Shown here in pieces: positions 5,504 to 21,732 of a DNA stretch of 23,300 nt (positions are counted from its first letter, which is position 1; the number at the start of each line of letters is the position of its first letter). The position numbers and the translations under genes are program-made. Origin of the DNA: a virus. Under the pieces are notes generated by a model. The model worked only from the letters and a program-made list of their open reading frames with translations. It ran no database searches and was not told the origin of the DNA. Location: IMG/VR virus record IMGVR_UViG_3300031977_002338, positions 1 through 23,300 of that record, one strand, 5' to 3'.

Positions 5504-7384
5504 CTAGCCGTTTGTAAATGGGCTAAATGTATTTCTCCCGGCTGTACTATCTAGCGCTTTAACAACAATATTATCGATCTTTTCTTGGCCAACATAGACA
5601 GCGATCTGCTGTGGACCTTGTCCTTGATTCTTCATTGCATCAATAAGCTCTTTAAAATCTTTCTTTGATATGACCTCGGATCCTTGACCACCAGTGATTA
5701 ACATTTCGCCTGGGTGGACGATGGCTTGTTCCGACATAATGGTGCCGCCTTGTTCAAAGCGAGGAGTTGCCGCGGCAACCCCACCAGAAGTTGCCGAAGC
5801 TTTAAGTGCAGCAGCAGTTCCGCCGCCAAGTATACCAATGCCTGCCGACGCAAGCAAAGCGGTACCTATCGGAAGTGAAGTTCCCATTGTAAGAGGAGCA
5901 GCAATAATAGCCGCGACACCGGCAACAGCGAGACCAACTCTCATAAATGCAGATGCTGCAGAAGATGCATCACCCAAGAATTTTGCAAAATCACCTAGGT
6001 ACCCTATTGCAGGAACTAAGAAACCATCAATAAAAGGCTTTGCATCAATTATTAGTTGGTTAAAAGCGTTGGTCAACTGCTCCATCGCGGACTGTGCTTG
6101 TCTGGCTGCTTCGGCTACCTCTTGTTGATTCATTCTTTGAATCTCAAGCTCTTCATTTGATTTGCCTAGAAGCTCAATAGTCTCAGACGTTGAGAGTCCT
6201 AAAGCAGAAGCAAACGCTTCTAGTTCAGCACCACCCAGATCCTCAATAGATTTGCCTGCTTGGTCAAATCCATCACGAAGCATCTTGATTCCTTCAATTG
6301 GATCCTCGTAAGCTGCGTTTAGCATGTCGATAGAATTTAAGAATGGTCCACCCAAGATGGCATTGAACCGACCAACAATCCTACCGGCTTCATCAAAAGT
6401 CTTAAACTTATCGACAACCCCCACAAGAGTTCCCAACTCTGTGCCGAGTGCCTTTGCGGCAACTGCCATCTCTTCAAACACTTCCTGCCCGTCTTCGCCA
6501 AAGCGAACAATAAAGTCTTTGTTGGCTGCGAACTGACCGCCCAATACGTCTATATCAACTCCCAAAGATCTTGCCGTTGAAGCCAAATCAATAAGAAGGT
6601 CATTAGCTTCTCCTACATCCATTCCCAATGTTTGAGTAGCAGTCTGAATAATTTTGGCTTGCGTTCCAAAACTAAATCCAAGCTTCTCAAGCTGAACGGT
6701 TGTTTGAGTTATTTCTTCTTGTTGCTGCTGAGTAAGGTAAGTAAAGTCTGTGAACTCGTTCTTTAGGGACCTAACAGCGCCCGCGACGTCTTCTAGAGAT
6801 ACGCCAGCTGCAATATTTGCCAAAGCAACATCGCGAATAGTTTCATTAAATTCATCCCCGGCACCTGTTTGAGCCTTGAACTGGGCAATAACTTCATCTT
6901 GCCGAAGTCCAAATTGAACCAGCATGTCAACAGCTTTTGCCCCAACAGCTGCCAGCTGACCTAAAGCAAGTTTAGGCGCCAATCCAGATTTGGCAAATTT
7001 TAATAAACTGAAGTCTCCTTGGCTGATTCCTTTTACCATTTTGCCAATTGAGGTTTCGAGACTAAGAAAACCTTGCGTTAAGGATTCAAGTTGAGTTTGA
7101 GTCGCAGCTGCAACCCTAGCATTTTGTTCATGCGCTTTCTGGTTCTCTCTTAGAGCTTCGGTATCTCTATTGATACTCTCTGTAGCAGCCTTGTATGCTG
7201 TTGTTAGGTCTCTTAGGCTATTCTCAAGATCCCCGACACTGTCCCCAGCAGCTTTTCTTTGCTCTATTAGGATTTTAAGCCTATTTATCTCGGCGCGCTG
7301 TTCGGCAGCTAGCTCTCTCTTTACCGCGAGTTGACGCTCTTCTGTTTCTAAAGCGGCTTTAATTTCTTCAAGTGTTAATGCCAT
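5504..7384 (-). CDS. Tail tape measure protein
   Basis: The 626-residue product has the expected composition of a tape measure. Residues 1-115 are a charged helical or coiled-coil stretch (RELAAEQRAEINRLKILIEQ). A long helix-rich middle follows. Residues about 478-526 are strongly hydrophobic and Gly/Ala-rich (VGLAVAGVAAIIAAPL, ASAGIGILGGGTAAAL), like the membrane-interacting segment of many tape measures. The C-terminal region has FEQGGTIMSEQAIVHPGEM, a motif common near the ends of these proteins. The length is close to T4 gp29 (590 residues); by the usual rule of about 0.15 nm per residue, a tail near 90-95 nm would be expected. The ATG follows AGGAG overlapping the stop of the preceding gene. 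Confidence 0.88.
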   Translation of the reverse strand: MALTLEEIKAALETEERQLAVKRELAAEQRAEINRLKILIEQRKAAGDSVGDLENSLRDLTTAYKAATESINRDTEALRENQKAHEQNARVAAATQTQLESLTQGFLSLETSIGKMVKGISQGDFSLLKFAKSGLAPKLALGQLAAVGAKAVDMLVQFGLRQDEVIAQFKAQTGAGDEFNETIRDVALANIAAGVSLEDVAGAVRSLKNEFTDFTYLTQQQQEEITQTTVQLEKLGFSFGTQAKIIQTATQTLGMDVGEANDLLIDLASTARSLGVDIDVLGGQFAANKDFIVRFGEDGQEVFEEMAVAAKALGTELGTLVGVVDKFKTFDEAGRIVGRFNAILGGPFLNSIDMLNAAYEDPIEGIKMLRDGFDQAGKSIEDLGGAELEAFASALGLSTSETIELLGKSNEELEIQRMNQQEVAEAARQAQSAMEQLTNAFNQLIIDAKPFIDGFLVPAIGYLGDFAKFLGDASSAASAFMRVGLAVAGVAAIIAAPLTMGTSLPIGTALLASAGIGILGGGTAAALKASATSGGVAAATPRFEQGGTIMSEQAIVHPGEMLITGGQGSEVISKKDFKELIDAMKNQGQGPQQIAVYVGQEKIDNIVVKALDSTAGRNTFSPFTNG

Positions 7385-7393
7385 TTAAAACTC

Positions 7394-7720
7394 CTAGTTT
7401 TTGAATGGCCACCTTAAGCCTGTTTCTAATTCAAACTTCTTAACTGCACTAGCCAAAGAATATTTAGAATTCATTGTTTTAGGATCATTTAGTCCGTGCT
7501 TAATATAAGAATCCATATATCGTTTTTCACTCTTAAGAGCTTTCATAAATGCGTCAACTTGAGAAGATGTGCCCGTTATATTCATTGGCACATCAAATCC
7601 CATGTAATATAGATCCAGCATCATGCTGCGAACCTTATTGGCAAATGCTGTATAGTAAGCTTCGGTCAGTGGCTTGCCAACTTGGTTAAGATCTATCGCT
7701 TGTTTTATTAAATCACTCAT
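7394..7720 (-). CDS. Small unknown tail-assembly-region protein
   Basis: The 108-residue product is mostly helical and mildly basic, with no Cys, no signal peptide and no membrane segment. Recognisable short segments are YYTAFANKVRSMMLDLYYMG, a central KALKSEKRYMDSYIKHG, and the ending ETGLRWPFKN. I do not recognise the family. It lies between the gp26-like frameshift pair and the tape measure gene, so a role in tape measure packing or tail assembly is plausible but unproven. The ATG at 7720 is preceded by GGGGACC about ten bases upstream, a weak ribosome site, and by a CTATTTA motif at 7744-7750. Its stop overlaps the tape measure ribosome site. Confidence 0.75.
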   Translation of the reverse strand: MSDLIKQAIDLNQVGKPLTEAYYTAFANKVRSMMLDLYYMGFDVPMNITGTSSQVDAFMKALKSEKRYMDSYIKHGLNDPKTMNSKYSLASAVKKFELETGLRWPFKN

Positions 7721-7767: not shown

Positions 7768-7950
7768 CTATCTTGTTCTTGCTTTCTCCATTCTCTCTTT
7801 CTGATCTTTGAACTCTTTTGACAATCTTTCAAGGAACCATCGTCGCAATGCAATGGGAAGATTGTATAGCTCTGTAAAGGACCACCCGCCGTGATGCTTA
7901 AGCAAAAAGAACTCTTCGTATACCGATTGTTGATATTTAGGAGTTAGGCC
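7768..7950 (-). CDS. Frameshifted C-terminal extension of the gp26-like protein (tail-chaperone-like)
   Basis: A frame offset by one base from the gp26-like gene stays open from 7965 to a TAG at 7768-7770. After the T7 run it encodes 60 residues beginning GLTPKYQQSVYEEFF and containing KHHGGWSFTELYNLPIALRR, then WFLERLSKEFKDQKERMEK. The residue pattern (GGWSF, YNLP, RRWF) looks like real, selected protein. It has no ATG before the seventh residue from the end and no ribosome site in a useful place, so it is best read as reached by a +1 or -2 shift at the slippery run. The fusion would be about 334 residues. The position, just before the tape measure, is that of lambda gene T. An undetected non-ATG start or a sequencing indel are alternatives. 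Confidence 0.7.
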   Translation of the reverse strand, partial: GLTPKYQQSVYEEFFLLKHHGGWSFTELYNLPIALRRWFLERLSKEFKDQKERMEKARTR

Positions 7951-8773
7951 AAAAAAAGGCTGCCGTCATTGGCATGCCTACCTTTCCTTCTTCGTGGCAA
8001 AGGGGACAGTTAATGTCAAAACGAAGGTCAAGGTCTGGCTTTATAACGTCGTAAATGTTACGAAGATGTTTTACATCTGGCAAAGGCATTGATTCAACAA
8101 ACTTATTAAGCAACTTTGGATCGGTGTGCTCATTTGCTTGAACAACAATAGACTTTAGAAGCCCTGTGATTGGACTTGCAGTGCCGTTGTTACCAGCAAT
8201 CAAAGAAGCAATCCTTTTTTCATCTCGCGATGTCAGCAAACGAACAAAGATACGAACTTTGGATACTGGCAACTCAAATGAGAAGATACCCTGACCTTCT
8301 ACTTGGACTCCCTCTGGAAGTTCATTGCCTCGCGGCTTAAGTTCGTTCAAATCAAAAGTGTAATCTGATTCTTTACCACAAGAAGGGCACGGTGCTGATA
8401 CATCGTAAAAAGGTCCGAAGCCTGTAATTCTTGTTGCAATAAGAATCGCGCTCTTATCTCCCAAAAGCAAATCGCCAACTTTAATGTTGTTATTGATGAT
8501 AACGGATTCTAATAAGCGATCAATCGCAAGCTCATTCCTAAGGAGCGCTTCCGAAGTTAGAATATCTTCTTCTTTGGCTGTCATGTGCTTGATTTCAATG
8601 ACAGCTTGATTATGAAGCGGGTGTCCTTCTGGATAGAACAAACCTTTGCTCGGCAATTCAACAAATTCTGTTGGATTGACGAATGCGAAAAGGTCTGATG
8701 CTTCTGATATAGGGGGAGTTGGCGCGTCTGGTTGCGGTGCGCCCAACCGCTCTAGGTTATTCCTTCGTGACAA
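7937..8773 (-). CDS. gp26-like baseplate/tail-assembly protein with zinc ribbon
   Basis: The 278-residue product matches the T4 gp26-type family: SRRNNLERLG at the start, VELPSKGLFYPEGH at residues 38-51, and a helical MTAKEEDILTSEALLRN. Two CxxC pairs (Cys129/132 in CPSCGK, Cys256/259 in CPLCHE) should form a zinc ribbon. The only workable start is TTG at 8773: a TGA lies two codons upstream in frame, AAGGTG is well spaced before it, and the next Met is residue 64, after conserved sequence. T4 gp26 is shorter (208). In T4 it is assigned to the baseplate hub; here its place just before a frameshifted extension and the tape measure argues for a tail chaperone role. It follows the tube gene by 19 bases. 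Confidence 0.82.
   Translation of the reverse strand: MSRRNNLERLGAPQPDAPTPPISEASDLFAFVNPTEFVELPSKGLFYPEGHPLHNQAVIEIKHMTAKEEDILTSEALLRNELAIDRLLESVIINNNIKVGDLLLGDKSAILIATRITGFGPFYDVSAPCPSCGKESDYTFDLNELKPRGNELPEGVQVEGQGIFSFELPVSKVRIFVRLLTSRDEKRIASLIAGNNGTASPITGLLKSIVVQANEHTDPKLLNKFVESMPLPDVKHLRNIYDVIKPDLDLRFDINCPLCHEEGKVGMPMTAAFFWPNS
7951..7957 (-). promoter_or_regulatory. Candidate slippery site (T7 run) for ribosomal frameshifting
   Basis: On the sense strand the gp26-like frame reads GCC TTT TTT TGG CCT AAC TCC TAA, so seven T lie just before the stop. A tRNA-Phe on the second TTT can move one base forward or two bases back and still pair perfectly. Either move enters the 60-codon downstream frame. 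A -1 shift would give TTG GCC TAA and end at once, so it is not the useful direction. Homopolymer slip sites of this kind occur in tail-assembly chaperone genes of other phages. Confidence 0.6.
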
Positions 8774-8792: not shown

Positions 8793-9368
8793 CTATAATG
8801 CAGTCACAGCCGCTACAGCAGGACCGGACACATAATCAGCCCAATCATAGCGGAAACCAATCTCAATATTAAGGAGACCATCGTCTTCGTAAGTTAAATC
8901 ACCAAATGTAGCAGAAGTAATGAAAGCGTTGTTAAGTGTCCAAGTGCCAACCAAACCACCTTGACCGTTCAACTCTTCAATAATAACATTACCCAGCTGA
9001 TTAACAGCATCGAACTTGTTTACAGTGCCAGGAGCCTGTGCTGGGTTGAAGAAAACATCTTCCTGAACATCAGGCTTGAGATAACCAGAACCAACGAGAG
9101 CATCATAAAGAATCTTATTTCCATCAGGGTTAACAGCGTTAACGATTGTAGCGCTAACTGGGTTCCACTCAACAGTTCCCGGGTAGTAATAAGTGTTCCC
9201 TAAAAACTTGTGTGCGGTGTCAGTTACTGTGTATGATGGCTTTGTAACCCCTTTAGCAAGATACTGTTCAAATCTAAAATCGGCGTTAACGTCGGCTAGG
9301 TTTGGTAGTGTAAGCAAAAATCGATGTGCTCTTCTTGGTTCTGATAATGCTGATGTCCAAAATGGCAT
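8793..9368 (-). CDS. gp19: Tail tube protein (gp19 type)
   Basis: The 191-residue product has the tube-protein pattern: RRAHRFLLTLPNLADVN near the N terminus, a first strand pair ending FEQYLAKGVTKPSYTV, then NTYYYPGTVEWNPVSATIV. It closes with TWTLNNAFITSATFGDLTYE and a last strand GLLNIEIGFRYDWADYV. T4 gp19 is 163 residues. Hexameric rings of this protein stack inside the sheath to form the tube for DNA delivery. The ATG at 9368 follows AGGAG at a normal distance. A strong hairpin and a CTATATA motif precede the gene, consistent with separate high-level expression. It lies directly after the sheath gene, the usual order. Confidence 0.92.
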   Translation of the reverse strand: MPFWTSALSEPRRAHRFLLTLPNLADVNADFRFEQYLAKGVTKPSYTVTDTAHKFLGNTYYYPGTVEWNPVSATIVNAVNPDGNKILYDALVGSGYLKPDVQEDVFFNPAQAPGTVNKFDAVNQLGNVIIEELNGQGGLVGTWTLNNAFITSATFGDLTYEDDGLLNIEIGFRYDWADYVSGPAVAAVTAL

Positions 9369-9432: not shown

Positions 9433-12294
9433 TTAATCGTCAAACGATGCCCCTGTTCTTGTGATGTTGAAGTCAATCGCAATGAACTCGATTGCTCTTG
9501 TTGGCTTCAAGTAAATCTTTGCATATAGAATGTTTCTATCTACAAGATCAGGTGTTGTAGTAGTATCGTCAAGAACAACTCTGTAGTCGGAAAGACCAAA
9601 GTTTGTCTTAACATCGGCCAAGAAAGGATTGACCTGTGCAGTAAAGCGCTTCCAAGTCTGCTGAACGTTTGGATCGAAGAGCAAGCCAGATGCAATCTGG
9701 GAAATGCGCTTCTTAACAAAGATCATTAGACGGCGAACATTGATGCGATCCAAAGCAGATGGCGTAAGCTGCAGTGTCTTCTGACCGAAGATTACAATAC
9801 CTTCTGCTGGGAACTTCGCGATTGGGTTAATGTTCGCTGAGTAAAGATCATCGCGATCCTTTCGGCGTAGCTGGTGGGCTACGTCAACAACCGGAATGCC
9901 TGCGGAGCCTTCTGTGAGACCACCGCGGTTGAAACCAGCTGGTGCGAACCAAACCTGTGTTCTACGCTGTGAGCTAGAGAATGTACCAACAGCTGCTACA
10001 GACGGCGGAAGCCATACAAAAGCACCGTTGATTGTGTCTCTTGCTCTAACCCATGGATAGTAAGCACAACCGTAAGAAGAGTTGAGGTTTCTATCGCGCA
10101 GACCATTAACCAATGTCGTAATGGTAGAAGGCGTGTTTAGACGATCAATCGAAGTGCTATCTTCTCTCGGCTGGAATGCCGATGGAAGGTCAATAACTGC
10201 GAGAGCATCTGCACGATCCTCACATGTTCTTACCAAGTGAGTTGTGAGACCATCCTGAGTCTGACCTGGGATGGCAGCCAAATTCATTTCAACAACCTCT
10301 GGATCCGCGACTGAGTCGATTGCTCTTCTGATAGAGAAGAAAGAGTAGCTTGTTGTATCAGATGGAGCCCCAGGCATTGCTGCAGATGTGAAAGGATCCA
10401 TTTCAGTAATGTCAAGACCGTCGAAACCACCGTAAAGCGGAACTGTGAAACGATCATAACCTGCGTCGAGTACACCAGAAATTGCTCCATTAACGAATGT
10501 CAATGAATTTGAAGTAGAGGAGCCTTCGGACCAAACACCAGAGCCTGAAATATCATCAAGTGTGAATGTTGGTGATAGCGAGGCGCTAAGACCAGTGGCT
10601 GCTGTAAACTGCCCAACAATACCGCCGCGCGGCCGAAGAATGTCGCCTACCGAGCGAGCGTATACTGTGCTAGCACCGTCGCGTGCAGTCTGCAAGCCGA
10701 AGTAAGCATCTGTTGGGTTTGCAAGGTTGCCCTGTGTAGCGTTAGCACGCAGTAGTGGGCGTGGGTAAGCAACAGAAGCAGTCAAGCCAGAACCAGAGAT
10801 AATGAACGGAGAGTTCAACTGGTAATCTGCAACCGGGCTGTACTCGCCATCTCTGATTGGGTTGACAATACTTCCAGTAATCCAATTACCTTCTGTAGTA
10901 GCGGCGCCGGAACCCAATGAAGCTTCATCTGTGTACTTTACGATGCCTTCGAAACCGAAAGGAAGAAGTGCTGCGTTTGTGAACCCAGCGTCTACATCGG
11001 AATTCATATCAATGTAAATGTAAGCAGAATTGTTTGGATAGTTACCATACTCTCTGTAAAGTCTGTCTGACTCTACCCAAGACTCGTACTTATCACCAAT
11101 CTTGCGCGCAACGTAGTTGAGGGAGTTAGGATTCAAATCACAATTGTTGAACTGCTCAACAACACGAACAACGTTGTCGCTGTCGGAGATGTGTCGCACT
11201 ACAACAGAGAAGGTACCATAATCCGAATCCTCGCTTGGAGAGCGCTTGATATCCTGAATGGAAATCTTGAGATTGCTGCTTGTCCAATCGCCGGCTTCAC
11301 CTCTTGCAACAAACTTGAACAACTTCTTCGGAGTTTCAGATGGATCCAACTTTGAGGCAATAACGAATGGTGTTTCAGCTGGCTGCAGCTGATACTTGAA
11401 ATCATCGCCGGTTTCAGTGCCACCTTGGAGGCTGACCTTGACTACTGCCGCGGCCACACCGTTCGAAGGAGTAGAGATAATCTCATCAATGTGCTGGTCA
11501 AAGGTCTCACCAAGGAAGTAACTCTTTCTTTGCGAAGCATCGGTGATTCTAGTATTTGTTAGCTGTGGGTTTGTGTTAAATACTTTACGAATGTACTTCG
11601 AATCGCCTCTTGTAAAGTTGAATGTAATCTTTTCCTGTCCCGAGCCTGAAACGATCAATGCAGTGAACTCTTTGTTTGTTCCGCCAGTTGCGGATGTAAA
11701 CAAAGCGTCGGAGCCCGTAAGCGAACCAACACTACTAGAAAATGCTGTGTTGCCTGTGGTTCCAGCACCAGCTGATGAAGAAACAATGGAGCCGCTTAAT
11801 TTTACATCTGTTCCAGCATCTGTGTAAAAAATAGCTGCCAAAGCACCAGAAACACTAAGGGCGCTGGGAGCGCTGGAGGAGTTTCTTGTAAAGAGAACCA
11901 ATCCATAAGCTTCACCTCCCAATGTCCAGCCAGCTTCATCAAGACCAGACTGATCGTCAGTGACGTTGTCCGACTCGGCGCCAAGCAAACGAATGTAAGT
12001 TAAAGGAGAGCTATTTCGGAGATAAGCTTGTGCGGCATACATGCCATAAGTCGTAGCCGTCGTGTTGGCGCCCTGTCGCCATACATCGTCACCGGCATTG
12101 CCCGGGCTCGGGGTGCCGAAAACATTTACAAACTCTTCAAAAGAGTTAACTGTTGTTGGTCTAAGTGCGGGTCCCTTTGCGGCACGTCCAATGATAACCG
12201 GACCAATCCCAGCTGGCGAAGCGGGAAGCTGTGAGTTATCAATTTCGTTTACGAAAACGCCGGGGGATACAAATCGGTAATTCTTAATTGACAT
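9433..12294 (-). CDS. gp18: Contractile tail sheath protein (gp18 type), enlarged
   Basis: The 953-residue product begins FVSPGVFVNEIDNSQLP and continues with GPVIIGRAAKGPALRPT and FVNVFGTP, the classical sheath N terminus. The C terminus contains QQTWKRFTAQVNPFLADVK, LSDYRVVLDD and ILYAKIYLKPTRAIEFIAID, the conserved core and the strand that links neighbouring subunits. The middle includes GGFDGLDITEMDPF and DREDSTSIDRL-type segments. T4 gp18 has 659 residues, so about 300 extra residues, rich in Ser, Gly and Thr and mostly in residues 130-600, must form outer domains. The ATG at 12294 follows AGGAG, with a CTATTTA motif 37 bases upstream. The protein contracts to drive the tube into the host envelope. 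Confidence 0.95.
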   Translation of the reverse strand: MSIKNYRFVSPGVFVNEIDNSQLPASPAGIGPVIIGRAAKGPALRPTTVNSFEEFVNVFGTPSPGNAGDDVWRQGANTTATTYGMYAAQAYLRNSSPLTYIRLLGAESDNVTDDQSGLDEAGWTLGGEAYGLVLFTRNSSSAPSALSVSGALAAIFYTDAGTDVKLSGSIVSSSAGAGTTGNTAFSSSVGSLTGSDALFTSATGGTNKEFTALIVSGSGQEKITFNFTRGDSKYIRKVFNTNPQLTNTRITDASQRKSYFLGETFDQHIDEIISTPSNGVAAAVVKVSLQGGTETGDDFKYQLQPAETPFVIASKLDPSETPKKLFKFVARGEAGDWTSSNLKISIQDIKRSPSEDSDYGTFSVVVRHISDSDNVVRVVEQFNNCDLNPNSLNYVARKIGDKYESWVESDRLYREYGNYPNNSAYIYIDMNSDVDAGFTNAALLPFGFEGIVKYTDEASLGSGAATTEGNWITGSIVNPIRDGEYSPVADYQLNSPFIISGSGLTASVAYPRPLLRANATQGNLANPTDAYFGLQTARDGASTVYARSVGDILRPRGGIVGQFTAATGLSASLSPTFTLDDISGSGVWSEGSSTSNSLTFVNGAISGVLDAGYDRFTVPLYGGFDGLDITEMDPFTSAAMPGAPSDTTSYSFFSIRRAIDSVADPEVVEMNLAAIPGQTQDGLTTHLVRTCEDRADALAVIDLPSAFQPREDSTSIDRLNTPSTITTLVNGLRDRNLNSSYGCAYYPWVRARDTINGAFVWLPPSVAAVGTFSSSQRRTQVWFAPAGFNRGGLTEGSAGIPVVDVAHQLRRKDRDDLYSANINPIAKFPAEGIVIFGQKTLQLTPSALDRINVRRLMIFVKKRISQIASGLLFDPNVQQTWKRFTAQVNPFLADVKTNFGLSDYRVVLDDTTTTPDLVDRNILYAKIYLKPTRAIEFIAIDFNITRTGASFDD

Positions 12295-20037: not shown

Positions 20038-21732
20038 CTAGACGATTCTCCAGTTGTCTGCTACAACGTATACCAAAGATACAGCAGCGTATGGGGACTC
20101 AAGGTCAATGGTGGATTCACCATCGATTGTGTGAGAACCCTGGCAGCTGATTCTAAGGACGTAGTCGCCAGAAATGTCACCAGCCTTAACGTGGATAACG
20201 TCACCAACGGATGGCGATGCTGGAAGATCAACACCTACGTTTGCTGCAGAAATGGCAGCGAAGTAGTTGTAACCTTCCTGAAGTGTATCACCATCAGCCT
20301 TGGAGTGAACATCGTTACCAGTAACGGAAAGCTGACCGGATGTGGCTGTAAGACCAGCACCTGCCATTGCGGATACGATATCAGCAAGGCTTTCCTTCTT
20401 TGTGCTGTTGTCAGTAGCATCGACAATAGCAACAAAGTCGGCACTCATGTCAACGTCAGCAGCTGTCAACTCGTTGAGGTCAAGGCTAAGAACAGCAGAA
20501 GATGCTGCAAGACCGTCACCTGCGAAGAGTGTAGCGAGATCGTCAATTGTTTCCTTCTTCATGGAGTCAGAATCATCTGAATCGATGAATGCGAAGCTGT
20601 CGCCGGAAGCGATTGCGCCTGCGGAGAACTCTGCGAGGTCAACCTCTAGAGCGTGGGATGCAAGAGCAATACCGTTACCAGCTACACTGGACTTCAACTG
20701 AATCTCATCAGACGCAATTGCGAAGGATGTGGAGTTGACCTGTACTTCTAGAACACCAGAAGAAGCTGCGAGAGCGTCACCAGCGATTGCAGTGGCGTAG
20801 TCAGCCATTGCGTCACGCTTCATTAGACCATCGCTGTCAAGGAAGTAGAAGCTATCTGCAGCTACGTCAAGTGCTGCATCAGCAACGCCTTCAAGCTCAA
20901 CTGTACCGCCAGCGTAAAGGTTACCAGAACCAGAGATAGCGCCAACTACTGCGAGCTTAGAACCATCAAAGGTCAACTTTGAATCGTCTTCAAGCTCACC
21001 ACCTGTACCGGCGAGAACGATACGACCAGAGGTCAAGTCCTCAACGATAGCAGTGTTGAATGTTGCACCACCGTCAACTTCAAGGGAGCTATCAAAGACA
21101 GCAGCCTCGTCAACAGAAAGTGTACCACGGATGTCTGTTGCGACACCTGTAGCAGCCAAGGATGTTGCACCAGCAACGTCAAGGGCACCGTTAAGATCAG
21201 CTGCACCAGCAACTGTGATACCAGCCTGCAAGTTCATTGCACCCTGGAAGTCAGATGTGCTGTTGAAGTCAGCAGCGCCATCAACCTGCATTGTGCTGTC
21301 GAATACAGCAGCTTCGTCTACGGAAAGTGTACCACGAATGTCTGTTGCAACACCAGAAGCAGCCAAGGATGCTGCACCAGCAACATCGAGAGCGCCATTG
21401 AGGTCAGCTGCACCAGCAACTGTTAGAGCGTCCTGCAAGTTTACAGCACCCTGGAAATCAGCTGTGCTGTTTGCGTCGAGTGCGCCACCAACTGTCATAA
21501 TGCCATCGATGCTGAAGTTACGAGCACCAGACATGTCCTTGTTGGAATCTAGAACCATAGCCTTGGATGCGGCTGCGGTACCATCTGTGATGCCATCAAG
21601 CTTTTCGAGATCAGTTTCGCTCATGTCAGCGGAACCGATAACGAGGGAGAAACCGGATTCGATTTCTACGTTACCCTCTTGGAGAAGGGCACCTGAGAGG
21701 ATTGCATCTCCTCTTTGGAATTTGTAAGCCAT
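20038..21732 (-). CDS. Repeat-rich fibre/decoration protein, 564 aa
   Basis: The start MAYKFQRGDAILSGALLQEG is followed by LEKLDGITDGTAAASKAMVL and DSNKDMSGARNFSIDG, a motif widespread in phage structural proteins. Residues 91-228 are two near-identical 69-residue units (DFQGA, TVAGAADLNGALDVAGA, DIRGTLSVDEAAVFDS). Three looser units (FLDSDGLMKRDAMADYA, FIDSDDSDSMKKETIDDLA, IVDATDNSTKKESLADIV, each followed by AGD/AG-LAASS-VL) lie near residues 297-330, 382-416 and 434-470. The end has GSHTIDGESTIDLESPYAAV and DNWRIV, the same cap type as the two adjacent fibres. The ribosome site GGAGGA is strong and codons favour C- or G-ending forms as in the capsid gene, so the product is probably abundant. 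It is likely a trimeric beta-rich fibre; target unknown. Confidence 0.8.
   Translation of the reverse strand: MAYKFQRGDAILSGALLQEGNVEIESGFSLVIGSADMSETDLEKLDGITDGTAAASKAMVLDSNKDMSGARNFSIDGIMTVGGALDANSTADFQGAVNLQDALTVAGAADLNGALDVAGAASLAASGVATDIRGTLSVDEAAVFDSTMQVDGAADFNSTSDFQGAMNLQAGITVAGAADLNGALDVAGATSLAATGVATDIRGTLSVDEAAVFDSSLEVDGGATFNTAIVEDLTSGRIVLAGTGGELEDDSKLTFDGSKLAVVGAISGSGNLYAGGTVELEGVADAALDVAADSFYFLDSDGLMKRDAMADYATAIAGDALAASSGVLEVQVNSTSFAIASDEIQLKSSVAGNGIALASHALEVDLAEFSAGAIASGDSFAFIDSDDSDSMKKETIDDLATLFAGDGLAASSAVLSLDLNELTAADVDMSADFVAIVDATDNSTKKESLADIVSAMAGAGLTATSGQLSVTGNDVHSKADGDTLQEGYNYFAAISAANVGVDLPASPSVGDVIHVKAGDISGDYVLRISCQGSHTIDGESTIDLESPYAAVSLVYVVADNWRIV
20323..20844 (-). repeat. 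Three diverged protein-coding repeats in the 564-aa fibre gene
   Basis: Three units share an 'F-iDsD-kket-aDlat-AGdgLaAsS-vL' pattern at residues about 297-330, 382-416 and 434-470. Spacing is uneven (about 85 and 54 residues), so they are old and diverged. Units of this type are common in fibre proteins of T4-like phages. Confidence 0.7.
21049..21462 (-). repeat. Tandem 207-bp duplication in the 564-aa fibre gene
   Basis: Two adjacent in-frame copies, 21462-21256 and 21255-21049, encode residues 91-159 and 160-228. The protein copies differ at only about a dozen positions; long stretches such as TVAGAADLNGALDVAGA are identical. The DNA has more differences, mostly at third positions, so the duplication is not brand new but is held under protein-level constraint. 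Confidence 0.9.

Follow-up and report, generated by a model that had tools for sequence, protein, structure and literature searches.

The gp26-like gene of a marine phage was found to end in a run of seven T residues from which a second reading frame continues, and the locus very probably directs a programmed +1 ribosomal frameshift yielding a short and a long tail assembly chaperone (TAC) in a phage with a contractile tail. This reading is drawn from sequence. The stretch of DNA analyzed, referred to here as the window, is the 23,300-base IMG/VR record IMGVR_UViG_3300031977_002338, and the features of interest within it are the following.

9433..12294, minus strand: tail sheath gene (phrog_23, E=4.7e-71; PF17482, E=1.3e-9)
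8793..9368, minus strand: tail tube gene (phrog_4542, E=2.3e-16)
7937..8773, minus strand: gp26-like short-form gene, 278 aa (PF12322, E=1.9e-15; phrog_150, E=8.8e-17)
7997..8008, minus strand: second Cys pair (C256, C259) of a putative zinc ribbon, from conservation in 50 relatives
7958..7978, minus strand: upstream mRNA hairpin, predicted +1 stimulator, abutting the slip site
7948..7957, minus strand: slip site TTT TTT TGG C (T7 run at 7957-7951)
7768..7953, minus strand: +1-frame extension, about 60 codons and stop (open frame, dN/dS 0.09)
7394..7720, minus strand: 108-aa ORF between the extension and the tape measure gene
5504..7384, minus strand: tape measure gene (phrog_167 tail length tape measure, E=5e-7)

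The order of genes on the minus strand is sheath, tube, gp26-like gene, 108-aa ORF and tape measure, and the same order is seen in three related loci (L083, L084, and L087). The gp26-like gene and its extension are thus sited after the tail tube gene and before that of the tape measure, as is characteristic of G/GT-type genes, and this arrangement supports the suggestion of an earlier note on this DNA that a G/GT-like pair lies directly before the tape measure. In Pfam, PHROGs and NCBIfam the 108-aa ORF matched no family. A 207-base tandem repeat (1.8 copies, 85%) was also observed at 21098-21471 of the window, within a predicted structural gene (21732-20038).

The gp26-like gene has a TTG start codon with a Shine-Dalgarno sequence, AAGAAGG, at 8786-8780. 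Its product belongs to the family PF12322 (T4_baseplate), against which it scored 57.6 bits with a cut-off of 24.5, and the phrog that it matches, phrog_150, is that of a baseplate hub. Four cysteines (C129, C132, C256, and C259) are each at least 90% conserved in 50 relatives, with the C256/C259 pair located 14-17 residues ahead of F273/F274, close to the 15 or so residues before the shift that had been estimated earlier. An AF2 model of the short form had a pLDDT of 85.5. Fold searches of the PDB with the models of the short form and of the extension returned no significant match for either, the comparison of the short form with the HK97 TAC gp13 (2OB9) being non-significant (E=2.4, probability 0.21, TMt 0.46). 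The 3' end of the 0-frame reads GCA GCC TTT TTT TGG CCT AAC TCC TAA (7963-7937, minus strand), with 11 bases between the T7 run and the TAA, or 14 bases when the stop codon is included.

The +1 frame coincides with the -2 frame. It stays open from 7965 up to the stop at 7768-7770, running for 60 codons past the junction, and its sequence is RQPFFGLTPKYQQSVYEEFFLLKHHGGWSFTELYNLPIALRRWFLERLSKEFKDQKERMEKARTR; the earlier description of a gp26-like frame ending soon after the T7 run, with another frame open beyond it, was therefore confirmed (7768-7965). This frame opens just 15 nt ahead of the shift codon with no ATG, GTG or TTG there, and the first candidate start within it is a TTG 45 nt downstream of the shift codon, inside the conserved domain, so that the claim of no usable start also holds for the window. 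Among relatives the median dN/dS of the extension frame was 0.09 (384 pairs) compared with 1.38 and 3.43 for the other two frames, which argues that the extension is a translated and selected protein; the value for the gp26 0-frame upstream was 0.16.

The extension was modeled by AF2 as three predicted helices (pLDDT 77.8). On the basis of profile searches it appears to be related to DUF6760 (PF20546), although it is not classed as a member, as the window extension scored 19.2-19.4 bits, below the curated cut-off of 27. Matches to this family at E<0.1 were found in the extensions of 37 of 50 relatives (best 3e-5). A search of seven MAGs with relatives using the DUF6760 model gave no match although these MAGs do contain the extension, indicating that the model is too insensitive for it. 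The family phrog_634, corresponding to the C-terminus of T4 gp51, was matched by 13 of the 50 (best 4.7e-4), while an hhalign comparison of the extension with the gp51 C-terminus was in register and non-significant (E=0.53). A weak similarity to the E' frame of the P2-like Xanthomonas phages Murka and FoX was also noted (tblastn E 0.01-0.02, 40% identity over 50 aa). The extension is predicted to be a T-domain-like, DUF6760-like C-terminal part of the long form. In L190 and L191, Bacteroidota loci where a tube-like gene lies upstream, PF12322 is followed by DUF6760 in one ORF, the point of fusion being directly after the equivalent Phe-Phe, and this provides direct evidence that elsewhere both parts act as a single polypeptide.

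Viral contigs were scanned with the 0-frame protein and six peptide patterns, which yielded 80 loci, ranging from 100% to about 40% identity. As none of the six patterns spans the junction, these relatives were not selected for it, and every locus reaching beyond the junction had retained the run or a near variant together with the +1 extension. Distant relatives were then added, namely Flavobacterium phage immuto, Microcystis phage Mel-JY01, Streptococcus phage GXN1, Listeria phage LIS04, Bacillus phage SP-15, two huge-phage records, Flavobacteriales and other MAG contigs, and 80 further viral contigs. Across contigs, named phages and MAGs (identity to the window protein from 100% to ~23%) all but one of 143 unique junctions (142) carry the extension in the +1 frame, consistent with the earlier requirement for a +1 or -2 shift. 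An additional scan gave 13 unique junctions, 11 of them in the +1 frame and two (L205 and L210) with an ATG of their own. Sequencing error, raised in the earlier note as a possible miscount of the T run, was ruled out by the recurrence of the run and the frame in more than 100 divergent contigs as well as in deposited genomes of isolates.

The slip site was counted in 113 representatives of less than 80% DNA identity, which are related, so that the counts do not reflect independent events. Its first nine bases are TTTTTTTGG (TTT TTT TGG) in 98 of these, TTCTTTTGG in five and TTTCTTTGG in five, with TTTCTATTC, TTCTTTCGT, TTTTTTAGT, TTTTTTCAC, and TTTTTTTTC found in single cases; at most junctions the site extends as TTT TTT TGG CC. 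TTT accounts for 75% of the Phe codons elsewhere in these genes, on which basis some 56% of Phe-Phe sites would be expected to be TTT TTT. All 113 representatives kept a TTT with T or C as the next base (TTT-Y), which means that a P-site tRNA-Phe would be able to re-pair fully one base forward, and at TTT TTT sites a slip on the first or the second Phe leads to an identical product.

A -2 ribosomal frameshift on the T7 run would arrive in the same frame and add one extra Phe before the same extension. Such a shift has a precedent in phage Mu (PMC5009743), and the run TTTTTTT permits -2 re-pairing of the second Phe tRNA. However, the run is broken in relatives with TTC TTT TGG, TTT CTT TGG or TTT CTA TTC, where tRNA-Phe can re-pair one base forward and the same tRNA cannot do so two bases back. 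These interrupted runs favor +1, and with them a -2 shift is considered very unlikely. The two products would differ at the junction, for which the peptide predicted in the window is VGMPMTAAFFGLTPK with two Phe after a +1 shift and VGMPMTAAFFFGLTPK with three (AAFFFGLTPK) after a -2 shift.

A homopolymer of seven T is of a typical length for polymerase slippage. With such a run available, the long form could arise from transcripts in which one U is deleted or two are added, but independent lineages in which the run is broken to T4 or T3 (TTCTTTTGG, TTTCTTTGG, and TTTCTATTC) still have the +1 extension, and transcriptional slippage is accordingly judged very improbable. The interruption of the homopolymer by TTC TTT TGG and TTT CTT TGG argues against both -2 shifting and polymerase slippage as a mechanism shared by these phages.

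Immediately before the slip site the RNA of the window can form a hairpin (7978-7958) with a stem of GGC.TGCC and GGCA.GCC, the two arms being separated by AATGAC. Hairpins of this type are placed 0-3 nt upstream of the slip codon, and the 24 nt ending at 7958 gave a folding energy of -10.1 kcal/mol (folded on the identical sequence of L002). When compared with synonymous-codon shuffles, the 21 nt ahead of the site had a mean z of -2.54, with p<0.1 in 66% of 109 representatives, while control windows 30 to 120 nt upstream had mean z values of -0.13 to -0.24. Two main stem registers were identified, in 30 and 29 of the 109 representatives against 2.0 and 1.8 expected; together they account for 59 of 109 against 3.8 expected, the maximum in 200 shuffles being 7 for each. 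The remaining 50 representatives have no hairpin in these two registers, with some having another register and a few having none. Within the stem, pairs are exchanged from G-C to A-T (TGCCG/CGGCA and TACCG/CGGTA) and from C-G to T-A (CCGC/GCGG and CCGT/ACGG), and CCG serves as the Pro codon of the 5' arm in 60 of 109 (55%), compared with 16% elsewhere.

In a 70S system, a hairpin adjoining the E site has been described as raising +1 frameshifting and attenuating -1, mimicking the Shine-Dalgarno duplex of prfB (PMC6321510). This published effect agrees with the +1 direction proposed for the gp26-like site, at which the hairpin may likewise stimulate the shift. Being placed upstream, the hairpin would also disfavor backward slippage of the -2 type, and transcriptional slippage would not predict its presence. 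A conserved 3' stimulator was rejected, as windows downstream of the site are weakly structured (mean z -0.10 to -0.66), and no Rfam match was found near the slip site. A Shine-Dalgarno-like GGAGG motif occurs upstream of the hairpin in 52 of 109 representatives (e.g., L065 and L128), spanning -22 to -18 relative to the first Phe codon, and 55 representatives have GAG as their codon at -21 to -19, though GAA is commoner than GAG elsewhere. GGAGG was rejected as a stimulator because 17 nt separate it from the first Phe codon, whereas the E-site spacing in prfB is short. In a few of the representatives bearing GGAGG, L128 among them, the +1 frame has an ATG after the motif.

The alignment of homologous loci, proposed earlier as a check, upheld the frame and the slip codon at the proportions given above, but the absence of an ATG did not extend to every lineage. 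Homologues of the kind named earlier as a refuting condition do exist, though only in L088, L205, and L210, all of them distant, where an ATG belonging to the extension lies at the gp26-like stop or just beyond it. L205 and L210 have also lost the TTT slip codon (TTC TTG and TTC CTT), and with two of the three lacking it, these look like lineages which replaced the frameshift, and not like counter-evidence for the window. That the extension is a separate small protein with an independent non-canonical or coupled start is hardly credible, for although it could appeal to these three ATG codons, to the annotation of Mel-JY01 with a separate CDS overlapping the 0-frame gene and to the GGAGG of some relatives, 67 of 142 junctions contain no ATG, GTG or TTG from the opening of the frame to five codons beyond the site, such a codon lies near the site in the +1 frame in only 23 of 109 representatives, the window frame opens 15 nt ahead of the shift codon, L205 and L210 no longer have the TTT, and conservation of the slip site would be left unexplained. 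It follows from the 23 representatives that some lineages might additionally start there.

What the computations show is the slip site and the frame with its conservation, the selection acting on the extension, the hairpin, the synteny and the in-frame fusion in relatives; we infer that the +1 shift occurs, how efficient it is, which way the hairpin acts and that the products serve as chaperones, as follows. Most ribosomes would stop at the TAA at 7939-7937 and release the short TAC. In a minority, tRNA-Phe on UUU in the P site would face a slow A-site codon (UGG, or YUU if it is the first Phe that slips) and re-pair one base downstream, from UUU to UUY, the slip being aided by the hairpin refolding in the exit channel directly behind the E site. 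These ribosomes would then read GGC CUA ACU and onward for 60 codons, giving the long TAC, whose C-terminal three-helix domain would be the T-like part. By analogy with gpG and gpGT of lambda, the short form would coat the tape measure, with recruitment of tube subunits left to the rare long form.

The upstream hairpin and the comparison with T4 gp26 and gp51 were absent from the earlier note, and the hairpin at the gp26-like slip site is new here. It gives the locus the look of a natural +1 site stimulated by an upstream hairpin, such stimulation having been measured with designed reporters in the previous work (PMC6321510). Full-text searches of an open-access subset of the literature found no earlier report of a +1 shift in a T4-type TAC, which makes novelty likely, if not certain. 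Current annotations miss or mis-start the extension, as in immuto, SP-15 and Mel-JY01. In the deposited annotations of L083 (4833-4943), L087 (3758-3877), and L084 (4734-4970) the extension starts within the conserved part or upstream in the overlap, and these are likely to be mis-annotated frameshift products. The frameshift, the gene pair, the separate start and the in-frame fusion form an evolutionary series which can be tested.

Among known systems, gpG/gpGT of lambda and other frameshifted TACs, including E/E' of P2, likewise have two nested products encoded just before the tape measure, and in TACs of the gpG/gpGT type the extension lacks an independent start, as in the window. In contrast to lambda, the proposed shift in the window is +1 instead of -1, the site is TTT-Y with an upstream hairpin, and the short form resembles T4 gp26, carries a putative zinc ribbon and was not gpG-like by the family searches run.

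T4 gp26 and gp51 both match PF12322 (8.8e-64 and 3.9e-52, respectively), the same family (PF12322/phrog_150) as the window short form. Unlike gp26, gp51 covers the C-terminal part of phrog_150, and phrog_634, the family matched by some relatives' extensions, covers its C-terminal 100 residues. The short and long T4-like TAC genes are presumably 26 and 51, as these family matches suggest. T4 gp26 ends directly after the Phe-Phe position, as does the short form of the window; however, in T4 the two forms come from two separate genes with no frameshift, whereas in the window both would come from one gene through the +1 shift. The T4-like TACs were identified by Vladimirov, Gautam and Davidson (2022, Virology 566:9), with two forms made by a mechanism other than frameshifting, and the pair is summarized as one short gene and one longer fused gene (PMC10885494). 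In a 2016 review T4 is presented as an exception to the conserved G-T frameshifting of long-tailed phages (PMC5009743). Taken with membership in PF12322, this literature suggests that the window represents a T4-type chaperone using a +1 shift, and that a family described as non-frameshifting in the T4 branch would frameshift in many, mostly environmental, phages.

TAC shifts of -1, -2, and +1 are reported across different phages, with +1 held to be very likely in the haloarchaeal myovirus HSTV-2 (PMC5009743). This is a contractile-tail TAC with the same direction as that proposed for the window, and the review's account of HSTV-2 does not mention an upstream hairpin, unlike what is found here. 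In prfB (RF2), P-site re-pairing in the +1 direction at a slow A-site codon is stimulated by an E-site duplex, as proposed for the window; the duplex in prfB is formed between the Shine-Dalgarno sequence and 16S rRNA and the A site holds a stop codon, whereas the window has a cis hairpin and a sense codon. In the injection-system (eCIS-like) module of L190 and L191, a tube-like gene is likewise followed by PF12322 and then DUF6760, which there form one continuous ORF, unlike in the window. Another Bacteroidota injection-system-like locus, L189 (reverse complement, about 1115-1668), has a gp26-like ORF, shortened, that overlaps in the -1 frame at TCG GGG GAA TCA TAG with a DUF6760 ORF for which no start is obvious, making a -1 frameshift possible there. 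It is somewhat more likely than not that a sense-codon slip site UUU-Y (A-site UGG) with a hairpin behind the E site, as a cis substitute for the prfB duplex, constitutes a widespread natural +1 signal across the T4-gp26 chaperone family, with the two genes of T4 and the fusion of the injection systems as alternative routes to the same long form.
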